Source: Holophagales bacterium
Lineage (GTDB): Bacteria; Acidobacteriota; Thermoanaerobaculia; Multivoradales; Multivoraceae
Direction: 5' to 3'
Assembly: GCA_009845425.1 (NCBI GenBank)
Contig: VXZQ01000014.1
Coordinates: 333,783 to 397,782, forward strand
DNA: 64,000 bases
Shown: piece by piece, positions 33,335-50,547 of the stretch
Layout: each line of letters starts with the position of its first letter
How positions within the stretch are numbered: the first letter of the stretch is position 1
Translations under genes and position numbers: made by a program
The notes under the pieces: model-generated
Databases searched by the model: none
What the model was told of the DNA's origin: nothing
The model's input: the letters and a program-made list of their open reading frames with translations, nothing else

Positions 33335-33418
33335 CGCGGACCGCTGTTGATCCGCAGCTATGATCGAAGGACGCTGTTTTGCATTCCTGGGTTCACCCGC
33401 TCTTGGGAGGGTAGTTGG

Positions 33419-34498
33419 ATGAGGAAGAACGAACAGTCGAGAGCCTTGGCGACGATTGGCGCGATGGCCCTGTTGCTCGCGCTCGCCGCTGCCGGCGCGG
33501 TCCTGGCGGCCAACAACAACGCCAAGGACGCGGACTGGGCAATCCCGCGCACCGCTTACGGCCACCCGGACCTCCAGGGCGTGTGGGAGAACAACAACGG
33601 CACTCCCCTGCAGCGCCCCGCCGCCTGGGCGGGCAAGGAGCGGTTGACGGACGAGGAGTTCCAGGAGCTGATGGCGGCGGTCTCCGAAGCGACGGACCCC
33701 GGCGCGGACGCCCTGTTCGGCGACCAGCTCGTCCTGGCGGCGATCGAGCGGACGAAGGCGACGTCCTACGACCCGACGACTGGCAACTACAACCAGTTCT
33801 GGATCGCGGACCGGTACTTCACCAAGCGCACTTCGCTCGTCGTCGATCCGCCCGACGGTCTGATCCCGCCCTTTACCGAATCGGCGAAGAAGCGCCTCTG
33901 CAAGCGGGTGAAGCACCTGATGGAGCATCCGGCCGATTCCTGGCTCGACCGGCCGATCGCCGAGCGCTGCATCAGCTACGGCGCCCCCTTCATCTTCCCG
34001 GGTTACAACGGCTACCACCAGATCTTCCAGAGCGAGGACCACGTCGTCATTCACCAGGAGATGATCCACGACGCGCGCGTCATTCGGCTGGACGACGAGT
34101 CCGCTCTCGATGACGACGTCCGGCTTTGGAACGGCGACTCGCGTGGCCACTGGGACGGCGACACCCTGGTCATCGAGACGACGAACTACTCGAAGAAGAA
34201 CGACTTCATGGGCTCCTCGGAGCAGCTGAAAATCACCGAGCGGTTCACGCTGACGGACCCGGAAACCCTGGAGTGGGAGATCACGGTGAACGACCCGGGG
34301 ACGTGGACACAGCCCTGGACGGCGTCGATTCCCCTCAAGCGGACAGAGGACGCGATCTACGAGTACGCCTGTCACGAGGGCAACTACGGGATGGAGGGCA
34401 TGCTCGCCGGCGCCCGCGCCGAAGAGGCGGCCAACAAGCCGAAGCAGCTCGATCCGGGCGTCGTGTTCCGCTACCCGGGACTGATCTGCGACTTCTGA
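33419..34498 (+). CDS. Secreted protein with GHPDLQGVW motif, unknown function
   Basis: A 359-residue protein. A signal peptide (LATIGAMALLLALAAAGAVLAA) is followed by WAIPRTAYGHPDLQGVWENNNGTPLQRP, a signature found in a large group of uncharacterised secreted proteins in acidobacteria and relatives. Further conserved-looking blocks are WLDRPIAERCISYGAP, YNGYHQIFQSEDHVVIHQEMIHDARVI and GHWDGDTLVIETTNY. Three cysteines (in KRLCKRV, ERCISYG and EYACHEG) remain in the mature part. A gggagg ribosome site precedes the ATG at 33419. It ends 16 bp before the convergent ABC permease gene. No function is known to me. Confidence 0.75.
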   Translation: MRKNEQSRALATIGAMALLLALAAAGAVLAANNNAKDADWAIPRTAYGHPDLQGVWENNNGTPLQRPAAWAGKERLTDEEFQELMAAVSEATDPGADALFGDQLVLAAIERTKATSYDPTTGNYNQFWIADRYFTKRTSLVVDPPDGLIPPFTESAKKRLCKRVKHLMEHPADSWLDRPIAERCISYGAPFIFPGYNGYHQIFQSEDHVVIHQEMIHDARVIRLDDESALDDDVRLWNGDSRGHWDGDTLVIETTNYSKKNDFMGSSEQLKITERFTLTDPETLEWEITVNDPGTWTQPWTASIPLKRTEDAIYEYACHEGNYGMEGMLAGARAEEAANKPKQLDPGVVFRYPGLICDF

Positions 34499-34514: not shown

Positions 34515-35192
34515 CTAGCCGCTGAGCATCCTCTCCCGTCGCTCGGCGCGGGTGAACGTGAGGGCGACGATCGCCGCGATCGCGAGGGCGGTGCCGATGC
34601 GGTTCTGAACGTTCAGCGCGAGCATTTGCGCCGCGTCCGCCTCTTCCACGGCGAGCGGGTTCCAGAACGGTGAGACGCGGAACGAACCGAACAGCCGGTT
34701 GAGGCCGAGGACGCCGATCGTGGCCAGGGAGCCGGCCACATCGCTGCGGAACAGGGTCGCGAAGCCCATGGCGGCAACGAGGTAGAACACGACTCCCTGC
34801 GTTGCTCCGTACAGGCCCTGAAGAACCGGGAAGGCCGTGAAGAAGGCATAGGTCACGCTGGCGAGGAGGACCAGGCTGACCAGGAGCATCAAGACCGCGG
34901 CGGCGAGCTTGCCGAGCCAGACCCGATGGGCGCCTCCGGGCACGGTGTAGGCGATCTCGAGGCTGTGCTGGTCGAGCTCCCCGGTGATGATTCGGCCGCC
35001 CAGGAAGATGGCGAGCACGGCTACCGGCACACCGATCAGGCTGTTCTGCGCCGCCACCGGTTCCAGGGCAGGCCGCATGCCGGCTACCAGCATGAGCGCC
35101 TGTACTGCGAGCCACACCAGGGGCAGCAACGGCAGCATCCAGTAGCGGCGTCCGCCAAGCAACACCGCCGAAGTGCGAAGCAGCGTAATCAT
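34515..35192 (-). CDS. ABC-2-type permease subunit, last gene of the hybrid operon
   Basis: A 225-residue protein with about six membrane helices (LLPLVWLAVQALMLVAGM, IGVPVAVLAIFLGGRIITGELDQ, KLAAAVLMLLVSLVLLASVTY and others). GRIITGELDQHSLEIAYTVPGGAHRVWLGKL is the amphipathic coupling region of ABC-2-type exporters. The ATG at 35192 overlaps the stop of the RND-ABC fusion gene by 4 bp (ATGA), so it is translationally coupled and is the natural membrane partner of the fused ATPase. The substrate is unknown. Confidence 0.82.
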   Translation of the reverse strand: MITLLRTSAVLLGGRRYWMLPLLPLVWLAVQALMLVAGMRPALEPVAAQNSLIGVPVAVLAIFLGGRIITGELDQHSLEIAYTVPGGAHRVWLGKLAAAVLMLLVSLVLLASVTYAFFTAFPVLQGLYGATQGVVFYLVAAMGFATLFRSDVAGSLATIGVLGLNRLFGSFRVSPFWNPLAVEEADAAQMLALNVQNRIGTALAIAAIVALTFTRAERRERMLSG

Positions 35193-38100
35193 GCCGGCGC
35201 CTCGGTGCGCGCCGCCCGCGCGAGCCACAGATAGCCGTCCTCCAGCGTCGGCTCGGCGGGGGCGGCCCGCTCGTCCGGGCGGCCGCTGGCGAGCACACGA
35301 AGGCTGCTCGTGCCGTCCGGTTCGGGCTTCTGGTCGGCCAGCACCGCGCCTTCGGGCAGCTCAGGCACTTCTTCTTCATCGGCCGTTCGCCACGACCACA
35401 CCCGGCCCTCGGCTTCGCGCGACAGCGCGGCCGGATGGCCGTCGAACACCATTCGACCGCGGCTCAACACCAGGACGCGGTCGCACGCCACCGCCACATC
35501 TTCGACGACATGGGTCGAGAAGAGCACGATCCGGTCCTTCGCGAGCCGTGAGAGCAGGTTGCGAAAGCGGACCCGCTCGCGGGGGTCGAGGCCGACGGTC
35601 GGTTCGTCGACGACGATGATCGGAGGCAACCGGAGCAGCGTGCGCGCCACCGCCACGCGCTGTCGCATGCCACCCGAGTAGCCGCCGATCTGCTCGTCGG
35701 CCCGCTCGTCGAGCCCGACCTCACGCAGCAGCGTCGAGATGCGATCGGTCCGTTCCGACCTGTCGATCTGGTAGAGGGCGGCGTAGTACTCGAGGTACTG
35801 GCGGGCGGTCAGCCGGGGCGGCAGGCCGGCGTCCTGAGGCAGGTAGCCGACGTAGCGCGCGAGGCGCGTTCGGACACTGAGCAACGGTACGCCGCCGAGC
35901 GTGATCCGGCCCCGCGTCGAGTCGAGAATGCCGGTCAATTGCCGGAGCAGCGTCGTCTTGCCGGCGCCGTTCGGGCCGAGGACTCCGACCATGCCGCGTT
36001 CGACCTCGAAGCTCACTGCAGCCAGGGCCCTGACGGTGTCGATCGGCAGGTCCAGGCCGAACACCTTCGTGGCCGCGGCGCGCCAGAGGCGGAGGATCTG
36101 ACCTCGCCAGCCGCGCGCGCGCCGGCGGCGGGAAGTCCGCCGTTCCCGGCGCATCGTCTCCAGCCGCGCCGTACGGCGTCCGAGCTGAACCAACAGGATG
36201 ATCGTGGAAACGATGCCGAGCGCGATGAACCCTCCCACTTCAGGATCGGCGACCATCTCCGGGACGACCAGCCAGGCGAGAAGCGCCCAGGGCAGCAGGG
36301 CCGTCAGCACGCCCTCGATGCCGCCCGGTGCGACGCGACCGAGATCGTCGGCGCGGCCGCGGGCGCGCCGGATCTCGCGCAGCAACCGGGAGCCGATCAA
36401 CAGGATGGCGATCAGGACGCCGAGGATGATCAGGCCGCCGCGCATCCGCGCTGCCAGGGCGATGGCGCCGGCGAACAGGAGGAGAAGAGGCAGCAGCCGG
36501 TCGCGTGCGTCGGCCGGTTCGAAAGCCTGGCCTCCCTGAGCGGCGACCCGTCTGGCGAAGTCGGCCGTAGCCCGCAGCGCCCGGCGCACCGGTCCGGGAA
36601 GGCCGTACGTCTTGCGCAGGTGGCGGACCACGAGTCTGGGCGGGCCGGCGGCCGTCTCCGGTTCTGGCGACGGCGGTTTCGGTAGCAGCCATACAGTGAG
36701 GCCGAGCAACGCCCCGGCGATCAGCACCGTGGTCGTGACCTGCCAGAACATCGACTCGATCACGCCGAACGCGAACAGAGGCGCCGTAGTGGCGATGACC
36801 GCGCCGAGCCAGGTCAGTACGACCCAGGGGCCGACGCGGCTGAACAGTTCGTCGAGGCGTCGCAGGAAGACGAAGCCGACCGGGATGACGAGCAACGTCA
36901 GCAGGGTCGCGGTCAGCAGGCCACCGATCACGAGCGTCGCAAAGGGCGGCCAGATCTCGTTCTCGCGACCCGTGGCGATGGACAGGGGCGCCAGAGCCGC
37001 GACCGTCGTTGCGGAAGTCATCAGCACCGGGCGCGCCCGCTCGCGCACCGCGGCGAGGGCGGCCGCGCCGGCGCTCCAGCCGGCGCCCAGCGTGTGCTGC
37101 TGCATTCGGTCGACGAGCAGGACGGCCGGGTTGATCGCCAATCCCAGCAGGACGAGCGCACCGAGCAGAGCCATCGCCTCGAAGCCGATGCCGGTCAGCA
37201 CAAGAGCCCACACCGAACCGAGCAGCGCGAGGGGAAGGGCGATCAGGACAAGGATCGGCAGCGTCATCGACTCGAACGTCACCGCCAGGACGAGGAAGAC
37301 CAGCAGAACGACCGGCACAACGATCCGCCGGAACCAGTTCGTGCTCTCCCCGGAGCGGTCGAGCGCGATCGTCGTGCCCGCGGGCCGGTGGATGCTCGCG
37401 ATCGCTTCGTCCAGGCTGCGGTCGAAGGCGTCGCGCGCGGGTCCCCGTCGCGGCACGTCCGGTGACAGGGTGTAGAAGACCTCCCGTTCGCGGACGCCGT
37501 TGTGGTGGGTGATGACCGGGGAGGGCGGGGCTTGCCGCACTTGCGCCAGGGCGGCGACCGGCAGGACACCGGCCCCGGTCGAGACGCGGAGCCGTTGCAG
37601 CCCGCTGAGCGACACGTCGCGGTCGACGCCGCTGCCGTTTGATGACTCGGCCCCGTCGCGCCGGTCCTCCAGCCGTTGCACGACGATAGGCAGCTCTCTC
37701 CCGCTGGCGAGCGGATAACCGGTGTTGATCCTGGTCCCCTCGCGGCCGGCCAGATTCAGCATCGGCAGTACTTCGTCCAGGAGCACGCCGAACGTGTCGA
37801 AGGCGCGCCGATTCGGACTCACGTGGAGTTCGTCGGGCCCCGGGCGTACTGCCGGATAGGCGCTCGCGATGCCCTCGATCTCCCGCAGCCGCTCGGTGAC
37901 CTGGGCCGCGAGGTCGGTCAACTGCTCGTTGTCGTTGCCGGAAAGGACGACCCGGGATGGGCCGCCGCCGAGCAGTTCCTGGGCGCCGCCGCCTCTGCCG
38001 CCGCCGCCTCCTCCACGTCCTCCCGGGCCTTCACCCTCGCCCGGATTGAGGAGTTCGGCTCCGGCGCGCCGGGCCGGCGGACGCAGCAGTTGCCGTACGC

Positions 38101-40006
38101 GTCTGGCCGTCAGCCCCTCGGGTCGCTCGTCTTCATCCACCAGGTGGACGGTCAGCGACCCTCCCTCTTCCCGGATCATGCTCTCGACGCGGTCGACGCC
38201 CTCGACTTCCTGAATCGTCTCGAGACGTTCGAAGACGCGGACAGCCGAGTCGAGGCTCCCGCGGCCCTCGGGCAGGCGGACGGAGAGTTGGACCTGGTCG
38301 GCGATCGGCGCCTGGCCGGGGCCGCTCGAAGCGACGAGGAACAGGGCGGCGATGACGCTCAGGACGACGGCGGTGACGACGCCCGTGATCCAGCTCGCCG
38401 GCCGGCGCAGGGCGGAGGCGAGCACGCCCGCGAACAGAATCCGGGTGGGGTCGGGCGGCACCAGTCCGCCGAAGCGTTCGCGGCGTCGACGCAGCTTGGT
38501 CAACCGCCGAATCGCGGCCGGTGCGGCGAGGTGCCGCGCCAGCAGGGGCACCAGTCCGATCGCCACCAGGAGCGAGCCGAACAGCGGCAGCAGGATGGCC
38601 AGCGACAGGAGCGCGATCAGGTTCTGGATCAGGGACGACTCCAGGTCGACGATGACGGCGGGCAGGAAGACGATCGCCGTCGTGACGGAAGCGGCGACGA
38701 TGGCGCGGCCCGTGCGGCGGATGCCCCCGGCCGCGGCGTCGTCGGGACTCCTGCCGCGTTCCAGGCGGCGCTGGACGGACTCGAACACGACGACGCTGTT
38801 GTCCACGATGAGTCCGACGCCAATGGCCAGCCCGAAGAGCGTGAACAGGTTGAGCGACAGACCGGCCACGTAGAGGAAGGAGAGAGCTACTGCCAGACTG
38901 ACCGGCACGGCGACCGCGACCACGGCCACCGCACGCCACTGACGGAGGAAGAGGAACAGGACCAGGAGCGCGATCCCGAAACCCGAGAGACCGAGGTTCC
39001 GCAGTCGGTCGATCTGCGTCTCGACCAGGTCGGCGGCGTCGAAGCTGGGAAACAGGCGGATGCCGAGCGGAGTGAACTCCTCGTTGATCTCATCGATCCG
39101 GCGACGCAGATCGCGACCGAGTCGCACCAGATTGGCGCCTTCCTCCTGGAACACCATGACGCCGACCGACGGCTCACCGTTGACCCGGTACAGCATCTGG
39201 CGGCGGCCGGAGCCGATCTCGACGTCGGCTACGTGGCGGACCAGGACAGGAAGGTCGGGGACCACCCGTACGTCGCCCATGGACACCGGGCCGGCTGGCC
39301 GGCCGTCGAGCATCACCGCCGTCCGCCCTGCCTCGTCCTCCAGGCTGCCGAGGTAGCGGAGGCGTCCCGCCGCACCGCGCACCGCCGCGGTTACCTGCTC
39401 CGTCGTCACGCCGAGCGCGGCGCAGCGGTTCGGGTCGACCCACACGGTCAACTGGCGCGAGGCGCCGCCGCCCAGCATCGCCTGGCTGACTCCCGGCACC
39501 GCGGCCAGCCGGGGCGTGATCATTTCGTCAACCAGGTCGTACAGTGCGTCCTCGTCGTCGGAACCGGTCACCTGCAGGATCATGGCGAAGCTCGAGAAGA
39601 CACTGGTGTCGTCGGCCTGCACGTTGAGGAAGGCGTCGCGCGGCTGGGTTCGGGCGAGATCGGCGGCGATGCGGCGCATCTCGAGTTCGCGCACCTTGAG
39701 GTCGACGCCGCGTTCGAAGCGGACGGTGAAGCTGCCGGCGGCGCCGCTGACCTCGCCCCAGGTCTCGGCCACCCGGGGCAGCGTGCGGACCCGGGCTTCG
39801 AGCGGCATGAGGATCTCCCGCTCGATCGTCTCCGGCTCGCTGCCCGGGCGGAAGAAGCTGACGTAGAGCGAGTCGCCCGTGAGAGCAGGGAACAGTTCGA
39901 CCGGCAGTCTCTGCCACGCGAACCCGCCGAGCATGACGAGTGCGACGAAGAACATCGTCACCGCCAGGGGGCGGCGGATGGCGAGCGTGTCGAGACCGGC
40001 TCTCAC
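35189..40006 (-). CDS. RND efflux pump fused to an ABC ATPase that is split by a four-helix membrane insert
   Basis: One uninterrupted 1605-residue frame. Residues 1-1050 are an AcrB/HAE1-like RND pump: TM1 12-30, PVELFPALTGDSLYV, TM4 GLAIGVGLIVDNSVVVFESV (Asp402-Asn403), TM10 GLAINPAVLLVD. Two further helices (about 1060-1107) lead to RLVVRHLRKTYG (1124-1135), the first strand and A-loop Tyr of an ABC ATPase. Helices at about 1171-1187, 1190-1206, 1232-1251 and 1258-1275 follow, then a basic linker. The ATPase resumes at VRALAAVSFEVERG: Walker A 1344-1352, Q-loop Gln1391, SGGM signature 1444-1447, Walker B Asp1467-Glu1468, His1499. All ATP motifs are intact. The TM10 Lys of AcrB is absent. 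A poly-Gly tract lies at 662-674. GTG start; 13 bp after the RND1 stop. Confidence 0.92.
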   Translation of the reverse strand: MRAGLDTLAIRRPLAVTMFFVALVMLGGFAWQRLPVELFPALTGDSLYVSFFRPGSEPETIEREILMPLEARVRTLPRVAETWGEVSGAAGSFTVRFERGVDLKVRELEMRRIAADLARTQPRDAFLNVQADDTSVFSSFAMILQVTGSDDEDALYDLVDEMITPRLAAVPGVSQAMLGGGASRQLTVWVDPNRCAALGVTTEQVTAAVRGAAGRLRYLGSLEDEAGRTAVMLDGRPAGPVSMGDVRVVPDLPVLVRHVADVEIGSGRRQMLYRVNGEPSVGVMVFQEEGANLVRLGRDLRRRIDEINEEFTPLGIRLFPSFDAADLVETQIDRLRNLGLSGFGIALLVLFLFLRQWRAVAVVAVAVPVSLAVALSFLYVAGLSLNLFTLFGLAIGVGLIVDNSVVVFESVQRRLERGRSPDDAAAGGIRRTGRAIVAASVTTAIVFLPAVIVDLESSLIQNLIALLSLAILLPLFGSLLVAIGLVPLLARHLAAPAAIRRLTKLRRRRERFGGLVPPDPTRILFAGVLASALRRPASWITGVVTAVVLSVIAALFLVASSGPGQAPIADQVQLSVRLPEGRGSLDSAVRVFERLETIQEVEGVDRVESMIREEGGSLTVHLVDEDERPEGLTARRVRQLLRPPARRAGAELLNPGEGEGPGGRGGGGGGRGGGAQELLGGGPSRVVLSGNDNEQLTDLAAQVTERLREIEGIASAYPAVRPGPDELHVSPNRRAFDTFGVLLDEVLPMLNLAGREGTRINTGYPLASGRELPIVVQRLEDRRDGAESSNGSGVDRDVSLSGLQRLRVSTGAGVLPVAALAQVRQAPPSPVITHHNGVREREVFYTLSPDVPRRGPARDAFDRSLDEAIASIHRPAGTTIALDRSGESTNWFRRIVVPVVLLVFLVLAVTFESMTLPILVLIALPLALLGSVWALVLTGIGFEAMALLGALVLLGLAINPAVLLVDRMQQHTLGAGWSAGAAALAAVRERARPVLMTSATTVAALAPLSIATGRENEIWPPFATLVIGGLLTATLLTLLVIPVGFVFLRRLDELFSRVGPWVVLTWLGAVIATTAPLFAFGVIESMFWQVTTTVLIAGALLGLTVWLLPKPPSPEPETAAGPPRLVVRHLRKTYGLPGPVRRALRATADFARRVAAQGGQAFEPADARDRLLPLLLLFAGAIALAARMRGGLIILGVLIAILLIGSRLLREIRRARGRADDLGRVAPGGIEGVLTALLPWALLAWLVVPEMVADPEVGGFIALGIVSTIILLVQLGRRTARLETMRRERRTSRRRRARGWRGQILRLWRAAATKVFGLDLPIDTVRALAAVSFEVERGMVGVLGPNGAGKTTLLRQLTGILDSTRGRITLGGVPLLSVRTRLARYVGYLPQDAGLPPRLTARQYLEYYAALYQIDRSERTDRISTLLREVGLDERADEQIGGYSGGMRQRVAVARTLLRLPPIIVVDEPTVGLDPRERVRFRNLLSRLAKDRIVLFSTHVVEDVAVACDRVLVLSRGRMVFDGHPAALSREAEGRVWSWRTADEEEVPELPEGAVLADQKPEPDGTSSLRVLASGRPDERAAPAEPTLEDGYLWLARAARTEAPA

Positions 40007-40019
40007 GGCGCGTTCCGGT

Positions 40020-43000
40020 TCAGGCGTCCGCGGTCGGCCGGCGGCGCCGAGTCAGCCTCAGCGAGTCGAGAATCAGGTACAGGCAGGGCAGCACCAGCAA
40101 CGAGCCCACCGTCGAGGTCACGATGCCGCCGATGATCGTGTAGGCCATCGGGCTGCGCAGTTCGGCCGCCTCGCCGGCGCCGACGGCGAGCGGCAGAAGC
40201 ACGAGCACCGTGGTGAGCGTCGTCATCAGGATCGGCCGTAACCGGATCGCGGCGGCCCGGGCCAGGGCGGCTCGCCGCTCGATGCCCGCGGCCATCAGCC
40301 GCCGTGCCGTAGCGATCAGGAGGACGGCGTCGTTCACCGCCACACCAGCGAGCACGATCAGCCCGAGCAAGGCCATCACGCCGACCGGCCTGCCCATCGG
40401 CCCCAGCGTGCAGGCGACGCCGAGCAGGGCGAGGGGGATCGAGAACAGCACGGTGAGCGGTTGCAGGAGGGACTCGAACGTTCCGGCGAGCACCATCAGG
40501 ACGAGAACGATGGCCAGGATGCCCGCGAGCCGCAGTTCGGAGGTGGCGCGCAGACGTTCCTCCTCCTCGCCGGCCAGGCGCACGATCAGGCCGGGGGGAA
40601 GCTCGGTCGCCGAGATCGCGTCGCTCGCCGCGGCGATGGCACGTGGATAGTCGCTGCCTTCGGCGATCCGTGCCGTCACTTGCGCCACGCGCCGCTGGTC
40701 GCGGCGAAAGACCTCGCGCGCTCCCTCCGTCGGCACGAAGCGCGCGACCTGGCCGAGCACGAGATCGGCTCCGGCGCTGCTGGTGAAGCGCAACCCGGCG
40801 AGTTCCTCGGGCCGGGGCTGGGGCAGGGACAGAACGACGTGGCGCTCCTCGTCGCCGACCGAGAGCAGCGTGACCCTGCGGCCGTCGAGCGCGGACTGGA
40901 GTACACGGGCGATCGTCTCGAGATCGACGCCCAGGCCGTCGGCCATCGCCCGATCGAGTTCGATCCGCAGTTCGGGCGGACCGCCCTCGAAGGACGAACG
41001 CACGTTCCAGAGTTCCCCTCGTGTGGCCAGAGCGTCGCGGAGGCTGGTCGCCGCGGCCCGCAGGTCGACCAGCGACTGACCGGCGATCTCGACCACGATC
41101 GGCGGACCGGATGAGCCCAGGGCTTCGGCCAGCGCCGAGGTTCCGACCTCCCATTCGATCTGGGTGTCGGGCAGGTCCGTGAAGTTCGGCGACAGCGCGC
41201 CCACGAGCTGGCTGCCGGTGGGACCCTCGGCCGACAGGCGTACCAGGAGCCGGGCAGTGTTCTCCTCGGTCAGTTCGGTCGTGACCAGCCGGTCGTCCTC
41301 CGGCAGCCGTCCGACCTCGGCCTGAACCGCTTCGAGGTGCTCACCGGCGGCCTGACGCACCGCCTCTTCGAGCGTGGACACCGCGGCCGCGGTCGCTTCG
41401 ACGCGTTGGCCCGGCGGCCCGACCATGCGCACCGAGAACTGCCGGGGGTCGGCCGGCGGAAGGAGTTCGCTGCCCAGGCCGACAAGGACGTTCACGGCGG
41501 CCGCGGCGGCAAGCACGGCGGCGGCGACGACGAGCCAGCGCAGGCGGAGGAGGAACAGCACGAATCGTTCCAGGGCGCCGAAGGCCCAGCCGAGGGGACG
41601 CGCCTCGCCGTCGTCCGGATCCGTCGCAAGTGTGGCGTCGGCAGCGGGTGCTGCTTCCGCGACCCCAGCCGCCGGTTTGGCCCGAGGCAGGAACCAGCGC
41701 GACAGGGCCGGAATCAGCATCATCGCGACGGCGAGGGACGCGACCAGCGAGGCGGTGACGGTGAAGGCGATGCCCTCGATCAGCCGTGCGGCCAGCCCCT
41801 GCACGAAGAGGACGGGCAGGAAGACGACGCACGTGGTCAGCGTCGACGCGGCGATCGCTCCGGCGACCTCGCCGGTGCCGCGGGCGGCGCTGTCGGCAGC
41901 CGAAGCTCCGGGGCGGTGGCGCCGGTGGATGCTCTCGACGACGACGATCGCGTTGTCCACCAGCATGCCGGCGCCGAGCGCCAGACCGGCCAGGGTGATG
42001 ATGTTGAGCGAATGGTCCCAGAGCCGCATCGCGAACAGGGCGACGAAGAGGGAGACGGGCACGGCGGAAGCAACGACCACGGTCGGACCGAGCGAGCGCA
42101 GGAACAGGGCCAGGACGACGACGGCCAGCGCGATGCCGACCAGGGCGGCGCTCTGCAGGTCGGCCATCGCGTCCTCGACCAGGGCGGCGTCGTCGTTGAC
42201 CATCGACACCTGCACGCGGGGCAGGTCGAGTTCCAGGTTCTCGAGTGCCGCCCGCACGGTGCGCGAGACCTCGACGGTGTTCGCGCCGGCCTCCTTGAAC
42301 ACCTGCAGACCGACGCCTTCCTGGCCGTTGACGCGCACCAGATGGTCTATCTCCCCGTGGACGACCTCGACCTCGGCGACATCGGAGACGCGGATCGGTT
42401 GCCGGACCTGCTCGCCGCCGGTCCCCGCCTGGGTGCGATAGCGGATGACGACCCGCTCCACGTCCCGTGGGTTGCGGAAGCGGGAGATGCCGCGGACCAG
42501 GAAGACCTGGCCGCGATCCTCCAGGGTGCCGGCGTCGATGTCGACGTTCTCGGCCACGAGGCGCTGCTCGAGTTGGCTCAGGGTCACGCCGAATGCCTGC
42601 AGGCGGTAACGGTCGACCCGCACCCGCACCTCCAGTTCGCGCCCACCGAGCACGCGCACCTCGGCGACGTCGGCGAGCTGCTCCATGGCCGGCGCCACCT
42701 GGCGTCGCGCCAGACGTCGGAGTTCGGCGAGATCGGGACCGCCCGGCTCCGAGGCCAGCCCCAGGGTCATGACCGGCGACTGCCTCGGGTCGAGCTGGCG
42801 GACCAGGACCTCGTCGACTTCGGGGTCGGCCGCGACCGGGTTGATCGCCTTCTGGACCTCGATCAGCGCCAGGTCCATGTCGGCTTCCCAGTCGAAACGC
42901 ACCGTGGCGATCAGCCGGCCGGTGCGGGCAACCTGCTGGACCTCGCGGATGCCGCGTACCGTGAACAGGCGCTGCTCGACCTGTTCGCCGTAAAGCCGCT

Positions 43001-43202
43001 CCATCTCGGTCGGTGGCCGGTCGCCGGAGCGCACCGCGACCACGATCGTCGGCGAGCGCAGGTCGGGGAGGAGGTCGATCGGCAGTTCGCGCCACGACAT
43101 CCAGCCCACGAGGGCGAACGCCAGGGCGGTGACCGTGACCGCTACCGGCCGACGGGCGGCGAGGCGGGCCGGGCCGGAGCCTTCACCGGGAGCAGCGATC
43201 AC
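40020..43202 (-). CDS. RND efflux permease (AcrB/HAE1-like), RND1 of the hybrid operon
   Basis: A 1060-residue RND pump of normal length. TM1 is AVTVTALAFALVGWMSWREL, followed by PIDLLPDLRSPTIVV. TM4 has GLALGAGMLVDNAIVVVESI (Asp416-Asn417) and TM10 has GVAVNDAVLLI (Asn957-Asp958), so the AcrB Asp-Asp/Lys relay is replaced by Asp-Asn in TM4 and an added Asp in TM10. The two porter loops are about 40-340 and 575-880. A GTG start is preceded by aggaggt. It follows the fusion-protein gene for a lipoprotein adaptor by 27 bp and precedes the RND-ABC fusion by 13 bp. The two RND proteins probably form a heteromeric pump, an inference from the arrangement of MdtBC-like systems. Confidence 0.93.
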   Translation of the reverse strand: MIAAPGEGSGPARLAARRPVAVTVTALAFALVGWMSWRELPIDLLPDLRSPTIVVAVRSGDRPPTEMERLYGEQVEQRLFTVRGIREVQQVARTGRLIATVRFDWEADMDLALIEVQKAINPVAADPEVDEVLVRQLDPRQSPVMTLGLASEPGGPDLAELRRLARRQVAPAMEQLADVAEVRVLGGRELEVRVRVDRYRLQAFGVTLSQLEQRLVAENVDIDAGTLEDRGQVFLVRGISRFRNPRDVERVVIRYRTQAGTGGEQVRQPIRVSDVAEVEVVHGEIDHLVRVNGQEGVGLQVFKEAGANTVEVSRTVRAALENLELDLPRVQVSMVNDDAALVEDAMADLQSAALVGIALAVVVLALFLRSLGPTVVVASAVPVSLFVALFAMRLWDHSLNIITLAGLALGAGMLVDNAIVVVESIHRRHRPGASAADSAARGTGEVAGAIAASTLTTCVVFLPVLFVQGLAARLIEGIAFTVTASLVASLAVAMMLIPALSRWFLPRAKPAAGVAEAAPAADATLATDPDDGEARPLGWAFGALERFVLFLLRLRWLVVAAAVLAAAAAVNVLVGLGSELLPPADPRQFSVRMVGPPGQRVEATAAAVSTLEEAVRQAAGEHLEAVQAEVGRLPEDDRLVTTELTEENTARLLVRLSAEGPTGSQLVGALSPNFTDLPDTQIEWEVGTSALAEALGSSGPPIVVEIAGQSLVDLRAAATSLRDALATRGELWNVRSSFEGGPPELRIELDRAMADGLGVDLETIARVLQSALDGRRVTLLSVGDEERHVVLSLPQPRPEELAGLRFTSSAGADLVLGQVARFVPTEGAREVFRRDQRRVAQVTARIAEGSDYPRAIAAASDAISATELPPGLIVRLAGEEEERLRATSELRLAGILAIVLVLMVLAGTFESLLQPLTVLFSIPLALLGVACTLGPMGRPVGVMALLGLIVLAGVAVNDAVLLIATARRLMAAGIERRAALARAAAIRLRPILMTTLTTVLVLLPLAVGAGEAAELRSPMAYTIIGGIVTSTVGSLLVLPCLYLILDSLRLTRRRRPTADA

Positions 43203-43229
43203 GGTTGCCCGACCTCCTGGTGGTCGGCG

Positions 43230-44303
43230 CTAGCCGGACACCCGAACGCGCGTGCCGTCGGTCAGGGTCTCGAGTCCGCGCACGACGATCCGCTCGCCGA
43301 TCTCCAGCCCCTGGCGGACTTCCGCGATCTCGTCGTCGCCGAGACCGAGCAGCACCTCGCGCCGCACCGCGCGTTGGCCGTCGAGCACGAACACGACCCG
43401 TCGGCCGCCGCGCTCGGTGACCGCTTCGCGGGGGATGACGGGCACGGCGTTCCGCTGTTCGACGACTAGGGTCACCTCGACGAACATGCCGGGCCGCAGC
43501 AGACCGCCGGGGTTGTTGATCGCCACTTCGGCGCGGAAGGTATGAGTCGTCGGATCGACCTCGGGCGAGAGACGGACGACCGCGCCTTCGAAGGCGATGT
43601 CTTCCCAGGCGAAGTGGCGAAGCCGCCCTTTCTGACCCGGGTGGACGCGCGCCAGCTCGGGGCCCACCAGGTCGATGTCGGCGACCAGGGAGTCGACGGG
43701 AGCGATCCGCGCGACCTGGAAGCCCTGGTACACGAGCTGGCCGTCCGCGATCGGCATCCCGCTCGTGTCGCGGGCCAGTTCCATCAACACGCCGCCAATG
43801 GGCGTGAGCATTCTGGCGCGATCTTCCGTCAGCAGGCTCTGCTCCCAGGTTGCCTTGGCGTCTTCGAGGGCGGTCTCGGCCCGTCGCAGTTCCTCCGCGG
43901 CGATCAACTCCTGCTCGAAGAGCCGGGCGCGGGCGTCCCGCTCGGCGAGAGCGCCCTGGTAGGCCTGGTGCGTCGCCTCGACCCGGGCCGCGAGTCGTGC
44001 ATCCTCGCCCGTGACTTCCGCGATCATTTGGTCGGGGACCACGCGATCGCCCTCGGCGAGCCGGCTGCCGTCCTCGTTCCGCCCGATCTGGAGCCGACCG
44101 GGTGTCTCGACCTGGAGCACGATGCTCTCCGCGGCGCGCAGGGTGCCGGTGGCGACGATCAGGTCTTCGACGTTGCCGGTTCGGACTTCGGAGGCGCTCA
44201 CCGGCACCAGGAAGTCGACGGTGTCCGTGGTGCCTGCCGCGTCGCAACCCAGAGCCAGGAGGCAAGAGGCGGCCGCGGCGCCCAGCCATTGCCGCGCGCT
44301 CAC
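43230..44303 (-). CDS. RND membrane-fusion (periplasmic adaptor) lipoprotein
   Basis: A 357-residue HlyD/AcrA-type adaptor. The signal ends in lipobox LALGC (Cys20). The lipoyl half-motif is LQVETPGRLQIG with GDRVVPDQMIAEV. A helical hairpin follows (AYQGALAERDARARLFEQELIAAEELRRAETALEDAKATWEQ is its core), then beta-barrel and membrane-proximal parts (VHPGQKGRLRHFAWED, VIPREAVTERGGRRVVFVLDG). The hairpin is short, so the adaptor may reach only part way across the periplasm. A GTG start overlaps the stop of the ABC permease-M1 gene (GTGA). Confidence 0.92.
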   Translation of the reverse strand: MSARQWLGAAAASCLLALGCDAAGTTDTVDFLVPVSASEVRTGNVEDLIVATGTLRAAESIVLQVETPGRLQIGRNEDGSRLAEGDRVVPDQMIAEVTGEDARLAARVEATHQAYQGALAERDARARLFEQELIAAEELRRAETALEDAKATWEQSLLTEDRARMLTPIGGVLMELARDTSGMPIADGQLVYQGFQVARIAPVDSLVADIDLVGPELARVHPGQKGRLRHFAWEDIAFEGAVVRLSPEVDPTTHTFRAEVAINNPGGLLRPGMFVEVTLVVEQRNAVPVIPREAVTERGGRRVVFVLDGQRAVRREVLLGLGDDEIAEVRQGLEIGERIVVRGLETLTDGTRVRVSG

Positions 44304-47300
44304 GGCGTCCCACCCCCGCCGGTCGCGTCGGCGCCGGCGCCGTTGTCCAGGCGCACGAAGCGCACGGCGTCGGCGGCCACGACGTTGCCGGTCGTGTCGT
44401 TGCTCAGTTCGAGTTCCACCGTTCCCGGGGCCAGATCGAAGTCGCCCAGCACGGCCCAGCCGATGCCCGCTCCCTGGGCGTCGAAGTCGATGGGACGCGA
44501 GCTGCCGGCGTTGTGCAGTTCAAGATCGTAGCTGCCCAGGTTCAGGCCGAAGCTCACGTTGACCTGGGCGCCTCGGGCGTCGTCGCGGGGTGGACCGTCG
44601 CCGCCGCCGATCCGCACCTCGCGGCGGATCTCGCCGCCGCCCGGCACAGGCGAAAGCGAGGGCACATGCAGCTCCACTCGCCAGCGGCCGGCTTCGGGCA
44701 GTTCCGTTGTGTAGGTGACGCGGCGGCTTCCGTCGCCCTTCGCGATGAGCGCGGTGGTCCGCCGGTAGCGTCCCCAACTCGAAGGCTGTTCGTAGCGGGA
44801 CCAGTCGGCCGGAGTGCCGCTGAAGATCGAGTAGACGGGCAGACCCTGGTCGGTTTCGAGCGCGGGTGCGAAGATGCCGGCGAGACCGCCCTGGAGCCGC
44901 ATGCCGTCCGCCTCGGCTTCGTCCGTTTCGACCGAGAAGCCGGGATCCAGGTCATCGACCACGATCGTGCCGGCGCCGCCGTCGAGGAACGCCGGCGTCC
45001 AGTCGGCCGGCCGGACGCCACGAAGCGGCTCCCTGTCCGAGATCGTCTCGTCGTCGAGCCGCGGCAACTCGATGGCGAACTCGCGCCGGTTCAGGGACAG
45101 GTACGGGGATGCGAGCATCGTCCCCGGCGGCCGGGACGTGACGAGTCCGAACTCGACCGTCGTGTGCCCGGGGATGAGGACCGGCTCACTGGAATCCCAG
45201 CGCGCGCCACCGGGGGCGCGCACGGCGTAGCGGAGCCGGAACAGGCCGGGCGCCGCCTCGCCGTTGCGGACGAACAGCCGGGTCTGGTACTGCGGCCCAC
45301 CCTGGTCGTCGTCCGGCAGGCGCTCCAGTTGCGCCGGGGAAACCAGGAAACCCGGCAGGTCCGTCTGGTGCAGGAAGTCGCCGACGAGACCCGCCAGATC
45401 GACGCCCGCCTCCTCGGCTGCGCTGTGCAGATCGGCGGCGGTGAAGGTCGAACCGCGGTGATCGCGCAGCAGGTTGGCGATCATGGCTGCGGTGCGCTCC
45501 CGCCCGGCGCCGTCGAGTACCGCCGTGGCAAGGGCGGCAGTCTTGAGATAGAGCGCGTTCACGGCTTGCTTCGGGTTTTCCTCGACGTCCAGGTCGGTAA
45601 GGGAGCTGCTCAGCACAGCGTCCCAGACGCCGGGCCGGTCCGTGAGGGCCTTGACGATGCCGCTGGCGGCCGAGCCGCCGCCGGCTGCGAACTGGCCCGT
45701 GAAGCCCCCCTGCATCACGTTCGCCATCGTCCAGCCGAACTCGCGGTCGAACAGGTGAGCGGAGAAGTAGGACTCGCCCCCGTTCACCAACTGGTTCACG
45801 AGGTTGTGGCAGAGCGCTTCCAGCGCCAGGGCCTCGGGCCCTCGGGCGCCTGTCTGGTACAGGAAGACGTTGCGGATGCTCCCGGCCTCCAGATTGCCGC
45901 CGGAGTAGTCGAGGCGGAAGAACTGCTGCAGTCCGTTCGCCTTCGCCCTGGGCAACCCGCCCTCCTCGTCCTCGAACCGCTCCGGATTCCGGAACCGGAA
46001 CTCGAAGCGGGCGGTAGGCAGGCTGCTCTCGCTGACCAGCATCATGCCAGGCGGCGCTCGCTCGGTGTCCATGCGCCATCCGCCGCCATAGGAACGGAGA
46101 GTCCAGGGCACCTCGACGAGGCTGAACTGCCTGTAGGGGTAGGGCATTCCCAGTTCGCGGGCGGTGGCGAAGCGGTCGGCGGCGATCTTCTCGATTTCGG
46201 CCTGGGCGTCGGCGAAGAAGTCCAGGTTGCGCAGGTGGTTCGGGTGGAACAGGACCTCGACTTCGACTCCTTCGACGTGTGTCGTCCGGCGGTCGAATCT
46301 GCCGGCGACCAGCATGACCTCTGGCACCGGGCCGGTGGGCGCGAATCGCTGACCTTCCCCGGTGGATTCGGCCATGCCTGGCCCCGCGACCGTCCAGCCG
46401 GAGGGGGCTGTGACGTCGAGGTCCAGCTCGAAGAAATCCCGCGAACGCTGGCGCACGTCATCGGCGCCTACGGACGCGCCCGGACGGGGAAGCCACGCGA
46501 GAGACGCGGGGAGTGCGACGTGGTTGCGTTCGACGGAGCCGTTCAGGTTGCCGAGCATGACGATCTGCGCGTCCTGCCACTCGCCGGTGTTGTAGTCGAT
46601 CGCCGAGTCCAGATAGGCGAAGCGGAGGTCGGGCCGCCCGCGGGCGCGCACCCGGACCCCGGTGACCTGGTCTGCCGCTGGCGTCGAGCCGAGGTGGACG
46701 TCGAGCAGGCCGTTGTCATGGCTGAAGTCGAGCGCGTCACCGCCAGCGTTCCAGACTCCCTCCACCCGGAGGCCTGGATTCAGGCTGAACGTGACTCCGG
46801 AACCGGTAGCGGGCAGGAAGTGGACTTCGAGGTCGAGGGCAAGCCGTCCGCCGCGTTCGATGTCGATCGAGCCGCGGATCGTCTGAAGGTCAACGACCGC
46901 TGCGTCCCGGCGTTCCTCGTGTGCGGCGCGCCAGGCGTCCCTTTCGGCGATCTGGTTGCCGCTCCAGGTAATCGCCGAGAAGATGAGGACGGCACCGGCT
47001 GCGAGACCCGCACCGCCGGCGATCCCCCACAGGCGGCGCTTCGCGTCGTCGAGACGGGGATGGACGGCGACCGCGGTGGCCAGCAGGCCCACGGCGAGCA
47101 GGGCGAAGCTGCCCCGGTTCACGAAGTTGACGCCGGTCCAGATCTGGGGCGCGACCTCCGAGATGTTGCTGATGAAGCCGCCGTTCAGGGCAAGCGGCGG
47201 CAGGAGGTAGACCGGGACCCGGAACGTCAGGTACGTGCTGCCAGCGGCGAGCACGATGCCGGCCAGGGCAGCGACCAGCCGGTTGTTGCTGACCAGGGAA

Positions 47301-47833
47301 ACCACTTGCACGAAGGCGACGTAGAGGGCCAGCGCCGGCAGTGCCTCGAGCAGGAGGTAGGCCCAGACCGAACTCCAGAGGGCAGGTTCGCCGACGTACC
47401 AGCCGAAGGCGGATCCCGCATGGCCGACGGTCTGGATGAGGATCATCGCGGCAAACGCCACGCCCCAGACCATGAGCACGGTGCCCAGGAAGCGGCCGAG
47501 CACGAGTTCGACGTTCGAGTAGGGCCGGGTGTCGAGCACCTCGATCACGCGGTCACGACGGTCGCGGGCGCGCAGGTCGAAGGCGAGGAAGACGACGCCG
47601 AGACCCAGAATCGTGGTCTGGAACTGGGCGGTCTGACTGAGCAGGAATTTGGGGCTGATCGAACCGATCGTTGCCGAGAAGGACGAGAAGAGTCCGTGGA
47701 TCACCCAGTAGTAGCCGTAACTCACCAGGCAGGTGAGAATCGCGAGGCCCGAGAACAGCCAGAAGCGGAACAGGCGGCGAGTGGTCCGCATCTCGGTTCG
47801 GGCGAGCGACCAGACGTGGGCAAACGAGATCAC
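44300..47833 (-). CDS. ABC-2-type permease fused to a degenerate M1-peptidase-like domain and a golvesin-like domain
   Basis: An 1177-residue protein in three parts. Residues 1-300: about seven membrane helices of an ABC-2-type permease (starting ISFAHVWSLARTEMRTTRRLF, coupling region LDTRPYSNVELVLGRFLGT). Residues about 310-870: a gluzincin/M1-like domain. The place of HExxH reads H676-N-L-V-N680 (ALCHNLVNQLVNG), so catalytic Glu and second His are lost, and the GAMEN site reads WRMDTER; it cannot be a normal zinc peptidase. Residues about 950-1170: a golvesin C-terminal-like beta domain (TIVVDDLDPGFSVE, then GWAVLGDFDLAPG, AADAVRFVRLDNG). The GTG start overlaps the ATPase stop. Active ABC permease/M1 fusions are known; this triple form with a dead site is unusual. 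Confidence 0.85.
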   Translation of the reverse strand: MISFAHVWSLARTEMRTTRRLFRFWLFSGLAILTCLVSYGYYWVIHGLFSSFSATIGSISPKFLLSQTAQFQTTILGLGVVFLAFDLRARDRRDRVIEVLDTRPYSNVELVLGRFLGTVLMVWGVAFAAMILIQTVGHAGSAFGWYVGEPALWSSVWAYLLLEALPALALYVAFVQVVSLVSNNRLVAALAGIVLAAGSTYLTFRVPVYLLPPLALNGGFISNISEVAPQIWTGVNFVNRGSFALLAVGLLATAVAVHPRLDDAKRRLWGIAGGAGLAAGAVLIFSAITWSGNQIAERDAWRAAHEERRDAAVVDLQTIRGSIDIERGGRLALDLEVHFLPATGSGVTFSLNPGLRVEGVWNAGGDALDFSHDNGLLDVHLGSTPAADQVTGVRVRARGRPDLRFAYLDSAIDYNTGEWQDAQIVMLGNLNGSVERNHVALPASLAWLPRPGASVGADDVRQRSRDFFELDLDVTAPSGWTVAGPGMAESTGEGQRFAPTGPVPEVMLVAGRFDRRTTHVEGVEVEVLFHPNHLRNLDFFADAQAEIEKIAADRFATARELGMPYPYRQFSLVEVPWTLRSYGGGWRMDTERAPPGMMLVSESSLPTARFEFRFRNPERFEDEEGGLPRAKANGLQQFFRLDYSGGNLEAGSIRNVFLYQTGARGPEALALEALCHNLVNQLVNGGESYFSAHLFDREFGWTMANVMQGGFTGQFAAGGGSAASGIVKALTDRPGVWDAVLSSSLTDLDVEENPKQAVNALYLKTAALATAVLDGAGRERTAAMIANLLRDHRGSTFTAADLHSAAEEAGVDLAGLVGDFLHQTDLPGFLVSPAQLERLPDDDQGGPQYQTRLFVRNGEAAPGLFRLRYAVRAPGGARWDSSEPVLIPGHTTVEFGLVTSRPPGTMLASPYLSLNRREFAIELPRLDDETISDREPLRGVRPADWTPAFLDGGAGTIVVDDLDPGFSVETDEAEADGMRLQGGLAGIFAPALETDQGLPVYSIFSGTPADWSRYEQPSSWGRYRRTTALIAKGDGSRRVTYTTELPEAGRWRVELHVPSLSPVPGGGEIRREVRIGGGDGPPRDDARGAQVNVSFGLNLGSYDLELHNAGSSRPIDFDAQGAGIGWAVLGDFDLAPGTVELELSNDTTGNVVAADAVRFVRLDNGAGADATGGGGTP

Positions 47834-48816
47834 GGATGCGCCTCCTTCCCGGCGCCGTCGTCGACAGGTGGCGGCTCGGCGAACTCGAGTTCGTCGTGCT
47901 CGCCGAAGTGCTCGTCGCTGACCAGCGCCTCCGCGCGGCCGCGGGCGACCATGAAGGCGAGATAGCCCTCCTCGAGAGTGGGCGAGGCCGCGATCCGGGC
48001 GTCTCCCGGGACGCCGCCCGGCGCGGCGACCGCGCGGTAGGTCGCCTCGTTCTGGCTGGCGGTGCGCGAGACGATCTCGAAGTCGCCTTCGGGCTGCGGC
48101 GCGGACATCGGCAGCGTGAGCTCGAAGACCTGGCCCGCGGCCCGTTCGAGCAACTGCGTCGGCGAGCCCCGGAAGACGACTCGCCCGGCGTCGAGCAGGG
48201 CCAGGTCGTTGCAACCGGTGCCGAGGTCGGCCACGATGTGGGTGGAGAGGATGATCGTCCGTTCCCGCCCCAGGGTGGCCATCAGCTGGCGGAACCGGAT
48301 GCGCTCTTCAGGGTCCAGGCCGACGGTCGGTTCGTCGACCACGAGCAGGCGGGGTTGGTGGATCAGGGCCTGCGCGATGCCGAGACGGCGGGTCATGCCG
48401 CCCGAGAGCTTCTTCACCTTGCGATGGGCGACATCGCCCAGCCCCACGTTGTCGAGGACCGCGTCGACGCGTTCGCGCCGTGCGGCGCGGTCATCGAGGC
48501 CTGAGAGATCGGCCAGAGTGTCGAGGACCTCCTCGACGCGGTGCAAGCGCCAGGCGCCGAACTCCTGCGGCAGGTAGCCCAGGTGGGCGCGGACGGCACG
48601 GCGCTCCTTGACCGCGTCGTGGCCGAAGACGGTCACCGTGCCGGCGGACGGCTTGAGCAGGGTGCAGACGATCCGCATCAGCGTGCTCTTGCCCGCCCCG
48701 TTCGGTCCGAGCAGACCGAACAGTCCCGCCCCGATCGACAGGTCGACCCCGTCGAGGGCGACCGTGCCGCCCTTGTAGACATGCCGAAGACCCTGCACGT
48801 CGACGGTCGTGCTCAC
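47830..48816 (-). CDS. ABC transporter ATPase, first gene of the hybrid operon
   Basis: A 328-residue ATPase of the drug/antibiotic exporter (DRA/ABC-2) type: LRHVYKGGTVALDGV with A-loop Tyr14, Walker A GPNGAGKST at 37-45, Q-loop LPQE near 82-85, signature LSGGM at 137-141, Walker B VVDEP with Asp161-Glu162, His193. About 100 extra residues follow, ending in ASPTLEEGYLAFMVARG and an acidic tail. The same PTLE(D/E)GYL element ends the ATPase part of the RND-ABC fusion, so the two are paralogues. A strong gaggaggag site lies before the GTG start. It serves the fused permease encoded by the overlapping next gene. Confidence 0.93.
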   Translation of the reverse strand: MSTTVDVQGLRHVYKGGTVALDGVDLSIGAGLFGLLGPNGAGKSTLMRIVCTLLKPSAGTVTVFGHDAVKERRAVRAHLGYLPQEFGAWRLHRVEEVLDTLADLSGLDDRAARRERVDAVLDNVGLGDVAHRKVKKLSGGMTRRLGIAQALIHQPRLLVVDEPTVGLDPEERIRFRQLMATLGRERTIILSTHIVADLGTGCNDLALLDAGRVVFRGSPTQLLERAAGQVFELTLPMSAPQPEGDFEIVSRTASQNEATYRAVAAPGGVPGDARIAASPTLEEGYLAFMVARGRAEALVSDEHFGEHDELEFAEPPPVDDGAGKEAHP

Positions 48817-49032
48817 GATAGCTCTCCTCCTCGGTGTCTATACGGTCGTCGGCGGGGCTTGGTTTACTCGTGCGTGTCGGTTGTGTGGCAGGGCTTACGG
48901 TAACGCCTTTTGGTTCTGTGAAACCGGATCGGGTTCGCCCGCGTAAACTGAGTAGTCGTATAGTATGTCGCGCAAGGCGGGAGCACCGCGCCCGTCAGTA
49001 CCGCTGGACACCAGACCTCACGGAGACCTCGA
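48817..49032. promoter_or_regulatory. Divergent promoter region of the hybrid transporter operon and the cytochrome-monooxygenase gene
   Basis: This 216-bp gap is noticeably more AT-rich than its surroundings and lies between two divergently read units. TATAGT at 48959-48964 is a fair -10 for the rightward gene, and on the minus strand TATAGA (48842-48837) is a fair -10 for the transporter operon. No convincing -35 hexamer was found for either, and no clear operator palindrome. The assignment is by position and composition. Confidence 0.4.
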
Positions 49033-50547
49033 ATGAACCGTCCCCAGCTCTCGTCCGTGACCCGGCTGCTCGCCCTCGGCGCCCTTGCTTCGCTGGCCCT
49101 TGCCGGCGCTGCCACGGCGGCCGCGGTCGACCCCGAGCCGATCACCTTCTACGCCGACGTGGCGCCCGTGCTTCAGCAGGAGTGCCAGGTCTGCCACCGC
49201 CCGAATGGCGCCAACCTTGGCGGCATGGTGGCACCGATGGCCCTCACGACATATGAAGAAACCCGTCCCTGGGCCCGGTCCATCGCGCGCCAGGTCGCTT
49301 CGCGGGCCATGCCTCCGTGGGATGCGGCCCCCGAACACAACGGCGTCTTCGCGAACGAGCGCACGCTGACCCAGGAACAGATCGACGTGCTGGTGAAGTG
49401 GGCCGAGTCCGGCGCTCCGGCCGGCAATCCGGCGGATGCCCCGGAACCGGTGGAGTGGCCGAGCAGCGACGGATGGCTGATCGGCGAGCCCGACCTGGTC
49501 CTCCAGTTCGATGAGCCCTACTTCGTCGAGGACGACGTCGAGGATCTCTACATCTACTTCCAGACGACGGTCACCGAGGAGATGATCCCCGAGGATCGTT
49601 ACGTCAAGGCGATCGAGTTCCGGCCTGGCAGCCCGGCGGTTCACCACATCATCGTTCCCGGCCTGGGCGGCATCGCCCCGGGGAACGATCCGGTGATCCA
49701 CGAGGACGGCATGGCCGATGTGCTGAAGGCGGGTCGGAACCTGAGTTGGCAGATGCACTACCACAAGGAGCCGGGCCCTGGCACCGGCTCCTGGGACCAG
49801 TCCTCGGTCGCGCTCAAGTTCTACGACAAGGACGAGGAAGTGAAGTACGAGGTCTTCAACGCGGACATGGGCAAGTACGACTTCGCCGTTCCGCCCGGCG
49901 ACTCGGACTACACGATCCAGACCGAGTGGACGTTCCCCTCGGACTCGGAGATCGTCGGCTACCTGCCGCACATGCACCTGCGCGGCAAGGCGGCGAAGTA
50001 CGAGGCCTACTACCCGGACGGCAGCCACGAGGTTCTGCTCGACGTGCCGAACTACGACTTCAACTGGCAGACCACCTACAAGTACAAGGACCGCAAGAAG
50101 GTGCCTGCCGGCACCCGCGTGCTTCTGACCACGGTGTTCGACAACTCCGAGGACAACCCGGCGAACCCGGACCCGACCGCGACCGTGCGTTGGGGCGAGC
50201 CGACGACGGACGAGATGAGCTTCGGCTTCATGTCCTACATCAACGAGGAGAACAGGGGCCGCGGCGCCTTCCAGGGTGGCGGCCAGGGTATCGACGTGAC
50301 CGCGATCGTCGCCTTCTCCGACGAGAGCCGCGACGGCAAGATGCAGCTCGAAGAGGCTCCCGGCGGGATCAAGCAGTACTTCGAGATGATGGACCAGAAC
50401 AAGGACGGCGGCGTCGACATGGAGGAGGCGAAGGCCGCCAACGCCTTCCTCGAGCAGATGGCCGAGCAGCGGGAGAAGGCCGAAGCGGCGGCTGCGGGAG
50501 CCGCCGGCGGTTCCGCGTCTGAAAGGCTGGGTGCGCGGGTCCTCTGA
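49033..50547 (+). CDS. Secreted cytochrome c / copper type II monooxygenase-like / EF-hand protein
   Basis: A 504-residue protein with a signal peptide (LLALGALASLALAGAATAA). A single heme c site is at C51-x2-C54-H55 (CQVCH), with the distal Met of SRAMPPW. The middle resembles ascorbate-dependent copper monooxygenases (PHM/DBH fold), with His204-His205 (AVHHIIVPG), His242-x-His244 (MHYHKEPG), His313-Met-His315 (PHMHLRGK) and Met400 (FGFMSY). Two EF-hand-like loops follow at 430-441 and 454-465 (DESRDGKMQLEE, DQNKDGGVDMEE). The likely role is a periplasmic hydroxylase or copper electron-transfer protein fed by its own heme. The substrate is unknown. Confidence 0.82.
   Translation: MNRPQLSSVTRLLALGALASLALAGAATAAAVDPEPITFYADVAPVLQQECQVCHRPNGANLGGMVAPMALTTYEETRPWARSIARQVASRAMPPWDAAPEHNGVFANERTLTQEQIDVLVKWAESGAPAGNPADAPEPVEWPSSDGWLIGEPDLVLQFDEPYFVEDDVEDLYIYFQTTVTEEMIPEDRYVKAIEFRPGSPAVHHIIVPGLGGIAPGNDPVIHEDGMADVLKAGRNLSWQMHYHKEPGPGTGSWDQSSVALKFYDKDEEVKYEVFNADMGKYDFAVPPGDSDYTIQTEWTFPSDSEIVGYLPHMHLRGKAAKYEAYYPDGSHEVLLDVPNYDFNWQTTYKYKDRKKVPAGTRVLLTTVFDNSEDNPANPDPTATVRWGEPTTDEMSFGFMSYINEENRGRGAFQGGGQGIDVTAIVAFSDESRDGKMQLEEAPGGIKQYFEMMDQNKDGGVDMEEAKAANAFLEQMAEQREKAEAAAAGAAGGSASERLGARVL

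Follow-up and report, generated by a model that had tools for sequence, protein, structure and literature searches.

The window, a stretch of 64,000 nucleotides from a Holophagales bacterium (contig VXZQ01000014.1, positions 333,783 to 397,782), carries on its minus strand, at 34515-48816, a block of six open reading frames (ORFs) without internal stops, g1 through g6. Its fifth member joins a resistance-nodulation-division (RND) pump subunit and an ATP-binding cassette (ABC) ATPase domain in one polypeptide. In order, the genes code for an ABC ATPase, an ABC-2 permease with a periplasmic tail, an adaptor, an RND subunit, the RND–ABC fusion and a second ABC-2 permease. Chance does not explain this arrangement, because the same gene order and orientation recur in different phyla. 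We lean slightly toward a model in which the six products build one envelope-spanning export machine, wherein a heterodimeric ABC-2 exporter is permanently coupled to a heteromeric RND pump and its adaptor, with two energy inputs. The physical assembly, stoichiometry, export direction and substrate class of this machine are what we infer from the genes. A first-pass annotation had named the block as a candidate for an undescribed system, and the open-access literature that we searched yielded no earlier description, with no relevant report of this gene set or of RND and ABC parts fused in one protein.

The RND–ABC fusion and its ATPase domain

The g5 gene (35189..40006; this and all other operon features are on the minus strand) is one open frame of 1605 amino acids (aa) that matches the Pfam families ACR_tran (2.7e-144; best stretch, residues 8-616) and ABC_tran (6.6e-28; residues 1330-1470). 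Residues 1-1050 (36857..40006) form a full-length RND module, as judged from Pfam, alignment and hydropathy, with both periplasmic loops and the aspartate of transmembrane helix 4 (TM4). The module is followed, after its TM12, by a predicted extra TM hairpin at residues ~1055-1120 (36647..36844; hydropathy peaks at 1062-1080 and 1087-1105). Next comes the detached first β-strand of the ATPase domain, PPRLVVRHLRKTYG, at residues ~1123-1136 (36599..36640), which was located by alignment and an AlphaFold2 model. The strand is separated from the rest of the domain by an insert at residues ~1137-1325 (36032..36598) with four predicted TM helices (hydropathy peaks at 1170-1188, 1191-1209, 1230-1248 and 1257-1275). 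The remainder of the ATPase domain, recognized by Pfam, alignment and model, occupies residues 1326-1605 (35192..36031), and all its catalytic motifs are intact.

The break after the first β-strand, of about 190 residues, is present in all lineages. When stand-alone ATPases are aligned with g5, all 42 place their first strand under the detached segment and resume past the insert. In the AlphaFold2 model, a strand is formed at residues 1125-1134 with a predicted local distance difference test (pLDDT) score of 79-88, and most of the remaining ATPase domain scores above 90. Superposition of this model on LptB with VIA-align pairs 222 of 230 residues at a root-mean-square deviation of 1.5 Å (model residues 184-593 on chain residues 2-228), with the detached strand included. 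Alignment and model thus support the view that a membrane insert divides the ATPase domain. The nearest solved structures of this domain include NosDFY. The RND relatives with solved structures are ordinary RND pumps, and no solved chain among the listed matches spans both the RND and the ATPase parts.

A fusion of this kind might be an artefact, caused by misassembly or a frameshift, or the gene neighbourhood might be a coincidence. Most of the genomes are likely metagenome assemblies, and the g5 frame is broken in one relative within the genus (genome G008, locus L049, 3403-8150), where the interruption between residues 1366 and 1373 reflects a sequencing error or decay. Nevertheless, the explanation has almost no probability left and is refuted by conservation, as a single frame of ~1560-1614 aa with a homologous linker recurs in many species of three phyla in a conserved gene order. 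The linker motif is found in all clades, and therefore the fusion probably arose only once.

Spread and joint inheritance of the gene set

The ORF check reproduced the first-pass description of the block: six minus-strand genes with overlaps of 4 bp (of the GTGA and ATGA type) at the g1/g2, g2/g3 and g5/g6 junctions, and gaps of 27 bp at g3/g4 and 13 bp at g4/g5. Fifteen further genomes of the genus have all six genes in the same order and on the same strand, with identity falling to 66-84%. A profile hidden Markov model built from the g5 fusion linker alone (HMM A2) was used to scan the phylum, and it recovers the fusion in 34 of 396 genomes, representing 17 of 210 genera. Complete loci score below 1e-80, and apart from two contig fragments there is no grey zone; the insert is conserved in these genomes and in the other phyla. 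The spread is patchy. In the order and class as sampled, positives are confined to the genus of the window, apart from a possible truncated copy in another genus of the same family (G023), and several families of other classes are positive as well. Complete six-gene cassettes from other classes of the phylum are seen at five loci (L082, L083, L084, L085 and L087).

Outside the phylum, the fusion is present in 4 of 247 sampled Bacteroidota genomes and 4 of 244 sampled Pseudomonadales genomes. The Bacteroidota cassette always has seven genes, in the order ABC ATPase, permease-M1, OEP, adaptor, RND, RND–ABC and permease, and two genomes of the window's own phylum share this order. A Pseudomonadales locus with g2 to g6 in order (L126) came from a genome pattern scan. 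That scan used generic patterns (GPNGAGKT and I[IV]VDEPTV) and was flooded by unrelated ATPases, and absence from other phyla is not a claim it can carry. Mis-binning is unlikely because each phylum is represented by several independent genomes. The fusion linker was not found on plasmids at an E value of 1e-3.

The two RND genes share their history. Wherever groups are supported, the g4 and g5 trees concur, and the pairwise identities of the two families are correlated (Spearman 0.95). Because these trees agree, we conclude that the set is inherited together. Both trees also place the genus of the window as sister to a Pseudomonadales sequence (100/100 for g4 and 98/93 for g5), a position that points to horizontal transfer of the cassette as a whole. 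The earlier proposal that the six genes act as one unit is supported by conserved order across classes and phyla, by the agreement of the RND trees and by the co-occurrence of both halves where the operon is divided. The alternative raised with that proposal, that these families come together in this genome only, fails.

The divided operons bear on an explanation in which two machines share one operon. According to this explanation, g1 and g2 are a Gld/Nos-like ABC extruder acting on the periplasm, g3 to g6 are an RND system whose ATPase domain serves g6 only, and the two handle one substrate in sequence without binding each other. Some arrangements fit: the g1-g2 pair is adjacent to, and transcribed divergently from, g3-g6 at two loci of the phylum (L090 and L093), g1-g4 and g5-g6 lie on different contigs in two Pseudomonadales genomes (G538 and G590), and orphan copies of g2 occur. 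However, the split points vary (g1-g2/g3-g6 or g1-g4/g5-g6) and favour no fixed pair, and the explanation requires two homodimers even though each ABC-2 half occurs once per cassette. Moreover, both Pseudomonadales genomes keep both halves, and hence the set holds together even where it is unlinked; a third genome of that order has the complete set across two contig ends (L246 and L214). We therefore consider separate machines unlikely, though worth keeping in view.

The 5′ intergenic region of the operon (48817..49032) is shared with a divergent gene (49033-50547, plus strand) that adjoins the operon throughout the genus and has a weak copper-type monooxygenase C-terminal domain and a cytochrome-c-like region. 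No sigma-70-type consensus was found in 48817-49032; promoter and terminator scans were uninformative. Downstream, a convergent gene (33347-34498, plus strand) has no Pfam match and is 91-97% identical across the genus. Neighbouring genes vary between lineages and gave no clue to the substrate.

The partner proteins

The g1 gene (47830..48816) codes for a stand-alone ABC ATPase of 328 aa that resembles DrrA and GldA (ABC_tran, 2e-31) and scores below the cut-off for both the drrA and GldA models. In the alignment, its Walker A, Q-loop, signature, Walker B with the catalytic glutamate, and H-loop are all intact, and the Walker A, signature, Walker B and H-loop motifs are intact in the g5 domain as well. 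The first-pass annotation took these two ATPases to be paralogues on the strength of a shared C-terminal PTLE(D/E)GYL element. The tail does exist in both, but we reject it as proof of paralogy because an LE(D/E)x(F/Y/V/L) tail is common in unrelated stand-alone ATPases (28 of 42). A separate tree, drawn with 42 comparison ATPases that were chosen by similarity to g5, places the g1 and g5 domains in one subfamily with only four of those 42.

The g2 gene (44300..47833; 1177 aa) was assigned by profile and hydropathy topology as an ABC-2-type permease, which takes up roughly the first 290 aa, followed by a large periplasmic tail. Within its family, ABC2_membrane_2 is matched in 10 of 12 members (best 3e-8). 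The tail includes a putative M1-aminopeptidase-like domain at approximately 45194..46906, as indicated by Pfam and by profile matches to PDB chains of an M1 metalloprotease (3e-9) and aminopeptidase N (2.7e-7); Peptidase_M1 is recognized in five of 12 homologues (best 5e-6). The HExxH zinc motif and the GxMEN motif are each absent from all 12 homologues scanned. A golvesin-like β domain lies near the C terminus at approximately 44339..44836 (PF25275; PDB 6f2p, 2e-14) and is present in all 12 family members. Judged from these profiles, the tail is of M1-aminopeptidase ancestry and is without the zinc motif, and so the name permease-pseudopeptidase given to g2 at the outset is apt. An AlphaFold2 model of the periplasmic part, with two sequences, reached a pLDDT of 34 and was not used. 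Pseudomonadales that carry the system have one or two extra g2 paralogues, located beside or away from the cassette and mostly without an ATPase of their own (L247, 3019-6528; L248, 3122-6475; L249, 3860-7348; L244, 1131-4619). These might possibly serve as exchangeable substrate modules.

The short ABC-2-type permease g6 (34515..35192; 225 aa) begins at an ATG that overlaps the g5 stop, and an alternative GTG at 35228 would yield 237 aa. It adjoins g5 in relatives also. Many members of the genus have a second g6-like permease gene on the same strand, ~0.2-0.9 kb downstream, whose product is ~59-70% identical to g6 of the window (L037, 1371-2102; L039, 1347-2033; L043, 17915-18607; L047, 17905-18636; and others). 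No such gene was seen in the fetched stretches of the window genome or its close relatives L034-L036.

The periplasmic adaptor g3 (43230..44303; 357 aa) is of the membrane fusion protein (MFP)/HlyD-CusB type and exceeds the cut-off of TIGR01730 (6e-46; HlyD_D23, 2e-16). It has a lipobox-like cysteine near the N terminus, and its aligned hairpin tip reads like (I/V)(S/A/T)xxEL, which we take to resemble TolC-binding adaptors and treat as a lead. A conventional RND subunit of the hydrophobe/amphiphile efflux (HAE) type is encoded by g4 (40020..43202; 1060 aa; ACR_tran, 4.5e-199). The g4 and g5 RND modules are 33% identical, representing two different adjacent subunits, and RND_permease_2 is the best model match for each. 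Both keep the TM4 aspartate in a VDN motif and have asparagine in place of the TM10 lysine, as do other, ordinary RND pumps in this genome.

No TolC-type gene is seen among the ORFs flanking the operon, in agreement with the first-pass annotation. The window genome has 13 OEP-domain matches, in about seven proteins, outside the operon. A TolC-type OEP gene is part of the cassette in several relatives (L091, L092 and L219-L222), lying between g2 and g3 at the first two of these loci. Since the Bacteroidota and some relatives in the same phylum carry one inside the cassette, its absence from the cassette of the window is a difference between lineages.

A proposed export machine and its relation to known systems

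An ABC-2 exporter requires two ATPase domains and two permeases. Each cassette supplies four such parts once each, namely the permeases g2 and g6 and the ATPases of g1 and g5, and for this reason one heterodimeric exporter accounts for them more economically than two ABC units. The first-pass annotation envisioned two ATP-driven modules cooperating with a heteromeric RND pump. Both the ABC and RND parts are indeed present in one unit, but we recast the two ABC units as one exporter.

In the machine that we favour, the g5 ATPase domain would be anchored in the membrane by its inserted helices and would pair with g1, and this pair would drive a g2–g6 heterodimeric ABC-2 exporter. The ABC part might flip an amphiphile or extract it from the inner membrane, and in the periplasm this substrate might be received by the catalytically dead tail (M1/golvesin) of g2. 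From there, g4 and g5 would act as a heteromeric RND pump, perhaps with the 2:1 composition of MdtB2C, joined by the lipoprotein adaptor g3 to a TolC-type channel, encoded elsewhere in the window genome, so that the RND–adaptor–TolC part carries the substrate out. The habits of ABC-2 and RND transporters lead us to guess that the substrate could be a lipid, glycolipid or lipopeptide. More tentatively, and with the balance of probability against it, the RND pump may be coupled directly to ATP hydrolysis through a covalently attached ATPase domain, itself interrupted by its own membrane anchor, such that protons and ATP drive one path across both membranes.

Several points weigh against the favoured machine. 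The permease assignments of g2 and g6 are weak by profile (best ABC-2 matches of 5e-5 and 1.4e-3 in the window, the latter to ABC2_membrane_2, both below Pfam cut-offs), and g6 of the window is only 13-15% identical to its Bacteroidota counterparts. Orphan g2 copies and the second g6-like gene indicate that some parts can also be found away from the unit. The insert within the ATPase domain was modelled with low confidence (pLDDT 50-65), and placement of the detached strand was guided by the supplied alignment, so the model is not independent of it. Furthermore, an ABC dimer and an RND trimer are mismatched in symmetry unless the RND part is 2:1. Because an MdtB2C-like 2:1 pump would bring one tethered ATPase domain, that composition would remove the conflict.

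A different role for the ATPase domain is that it acts on the RND module itself, by gating it, assisting its assembly or replacing the proton drive, with g6 as an accessory anchor outside the transport path. The covalent fusion and the membrane insert within the ATPase domain, conserved in three phyla, are what such an ATP-driven or ATP-gated pump might look like, and g5-g6 is the tightest pair of the set, with its 4-bp overlap and its persistence when the operon splits. Yet the TM4 aspartate is kept and TM10 is of a kind common among RND pumps, so that proton drive is not visibly lost, and an ATPase domain of this kind usually partners an ABC-2 permease, which g6 resembles. We regard this role as improbable, and retain the single export machine as our preferred model.

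Among known systems, MdtABC and MuxABC also have an adaptor followed by two adjacent RND paralogues, and an MdtB2C1 heterotrimer has been described for Escherichia coli (PMC7015380). However, their RND subunits have no ATPase domain and their operon has no ABC permeases. Tripartite RND systems of the HAE/AcrB type share the full-length RND, the adaptor in the operon and the TM4 proton-relay aspartate, whereas the operon of the window lacks a TolC factor and adds ATPases in g5 and g1. MacAB-TolC and other ABC-type tripartite systems likewise combine an ABC motor, an adaptor and a TolC channel, and in these ATP moves substrate outward from the periplasm or inner membrane (PMC8277102). The ATPase domain of MacB is N-terminal to its own four-TM permease with a periplasmic core domain, whereas that of g5 is C-terminal to an RND module and is split by an insert.

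Another comparison is with the ABC-2 systems GldAFG and NosDFY, which have large periplasmic parts. The g1 and g5 ATPase domains resemble GldA and DrrA, and g2 weakly resembles GldF, but the scores are far below the cut-offs (188 versus 402.6 bits for GldA and 22.7 versus 288.5 bits for GldF). To our knowledge, GldAFG and NosDFY have no RND partner. The periplasmic region of g2 matches the N-terminal and post-catalytic helical parts of M1 aminopeptidases, but unlike these enzymes it is without HExxH and GxMEN and forms one protein with an ABC-2 permease and a golvesin domain. For each of MdtABC, MacAB-TolC and the Gld/Nos-type systems, at least one defining feature does not match, and the cassette has a fair chance of deserving a class of its own among tripartite export systems.

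The inner-membrane motors of tripartite export systems are sorted as RND (proton), ABC (ATP) and major facilitator superfamily (PMC8277102). If our model is true, a single polypeptide with RND and ABC parts, accompanied by the same partners in three phyla, would place both energy sources on one route. With it, the question whether an RND pump can be powered or gated by ATP becomes testable, and a membrane module that interrupts an ATPase domain poses a new problem for ABC structure. The linker profile, together with gene order, provides a clear search rule for cultured hosts and for the substrate.

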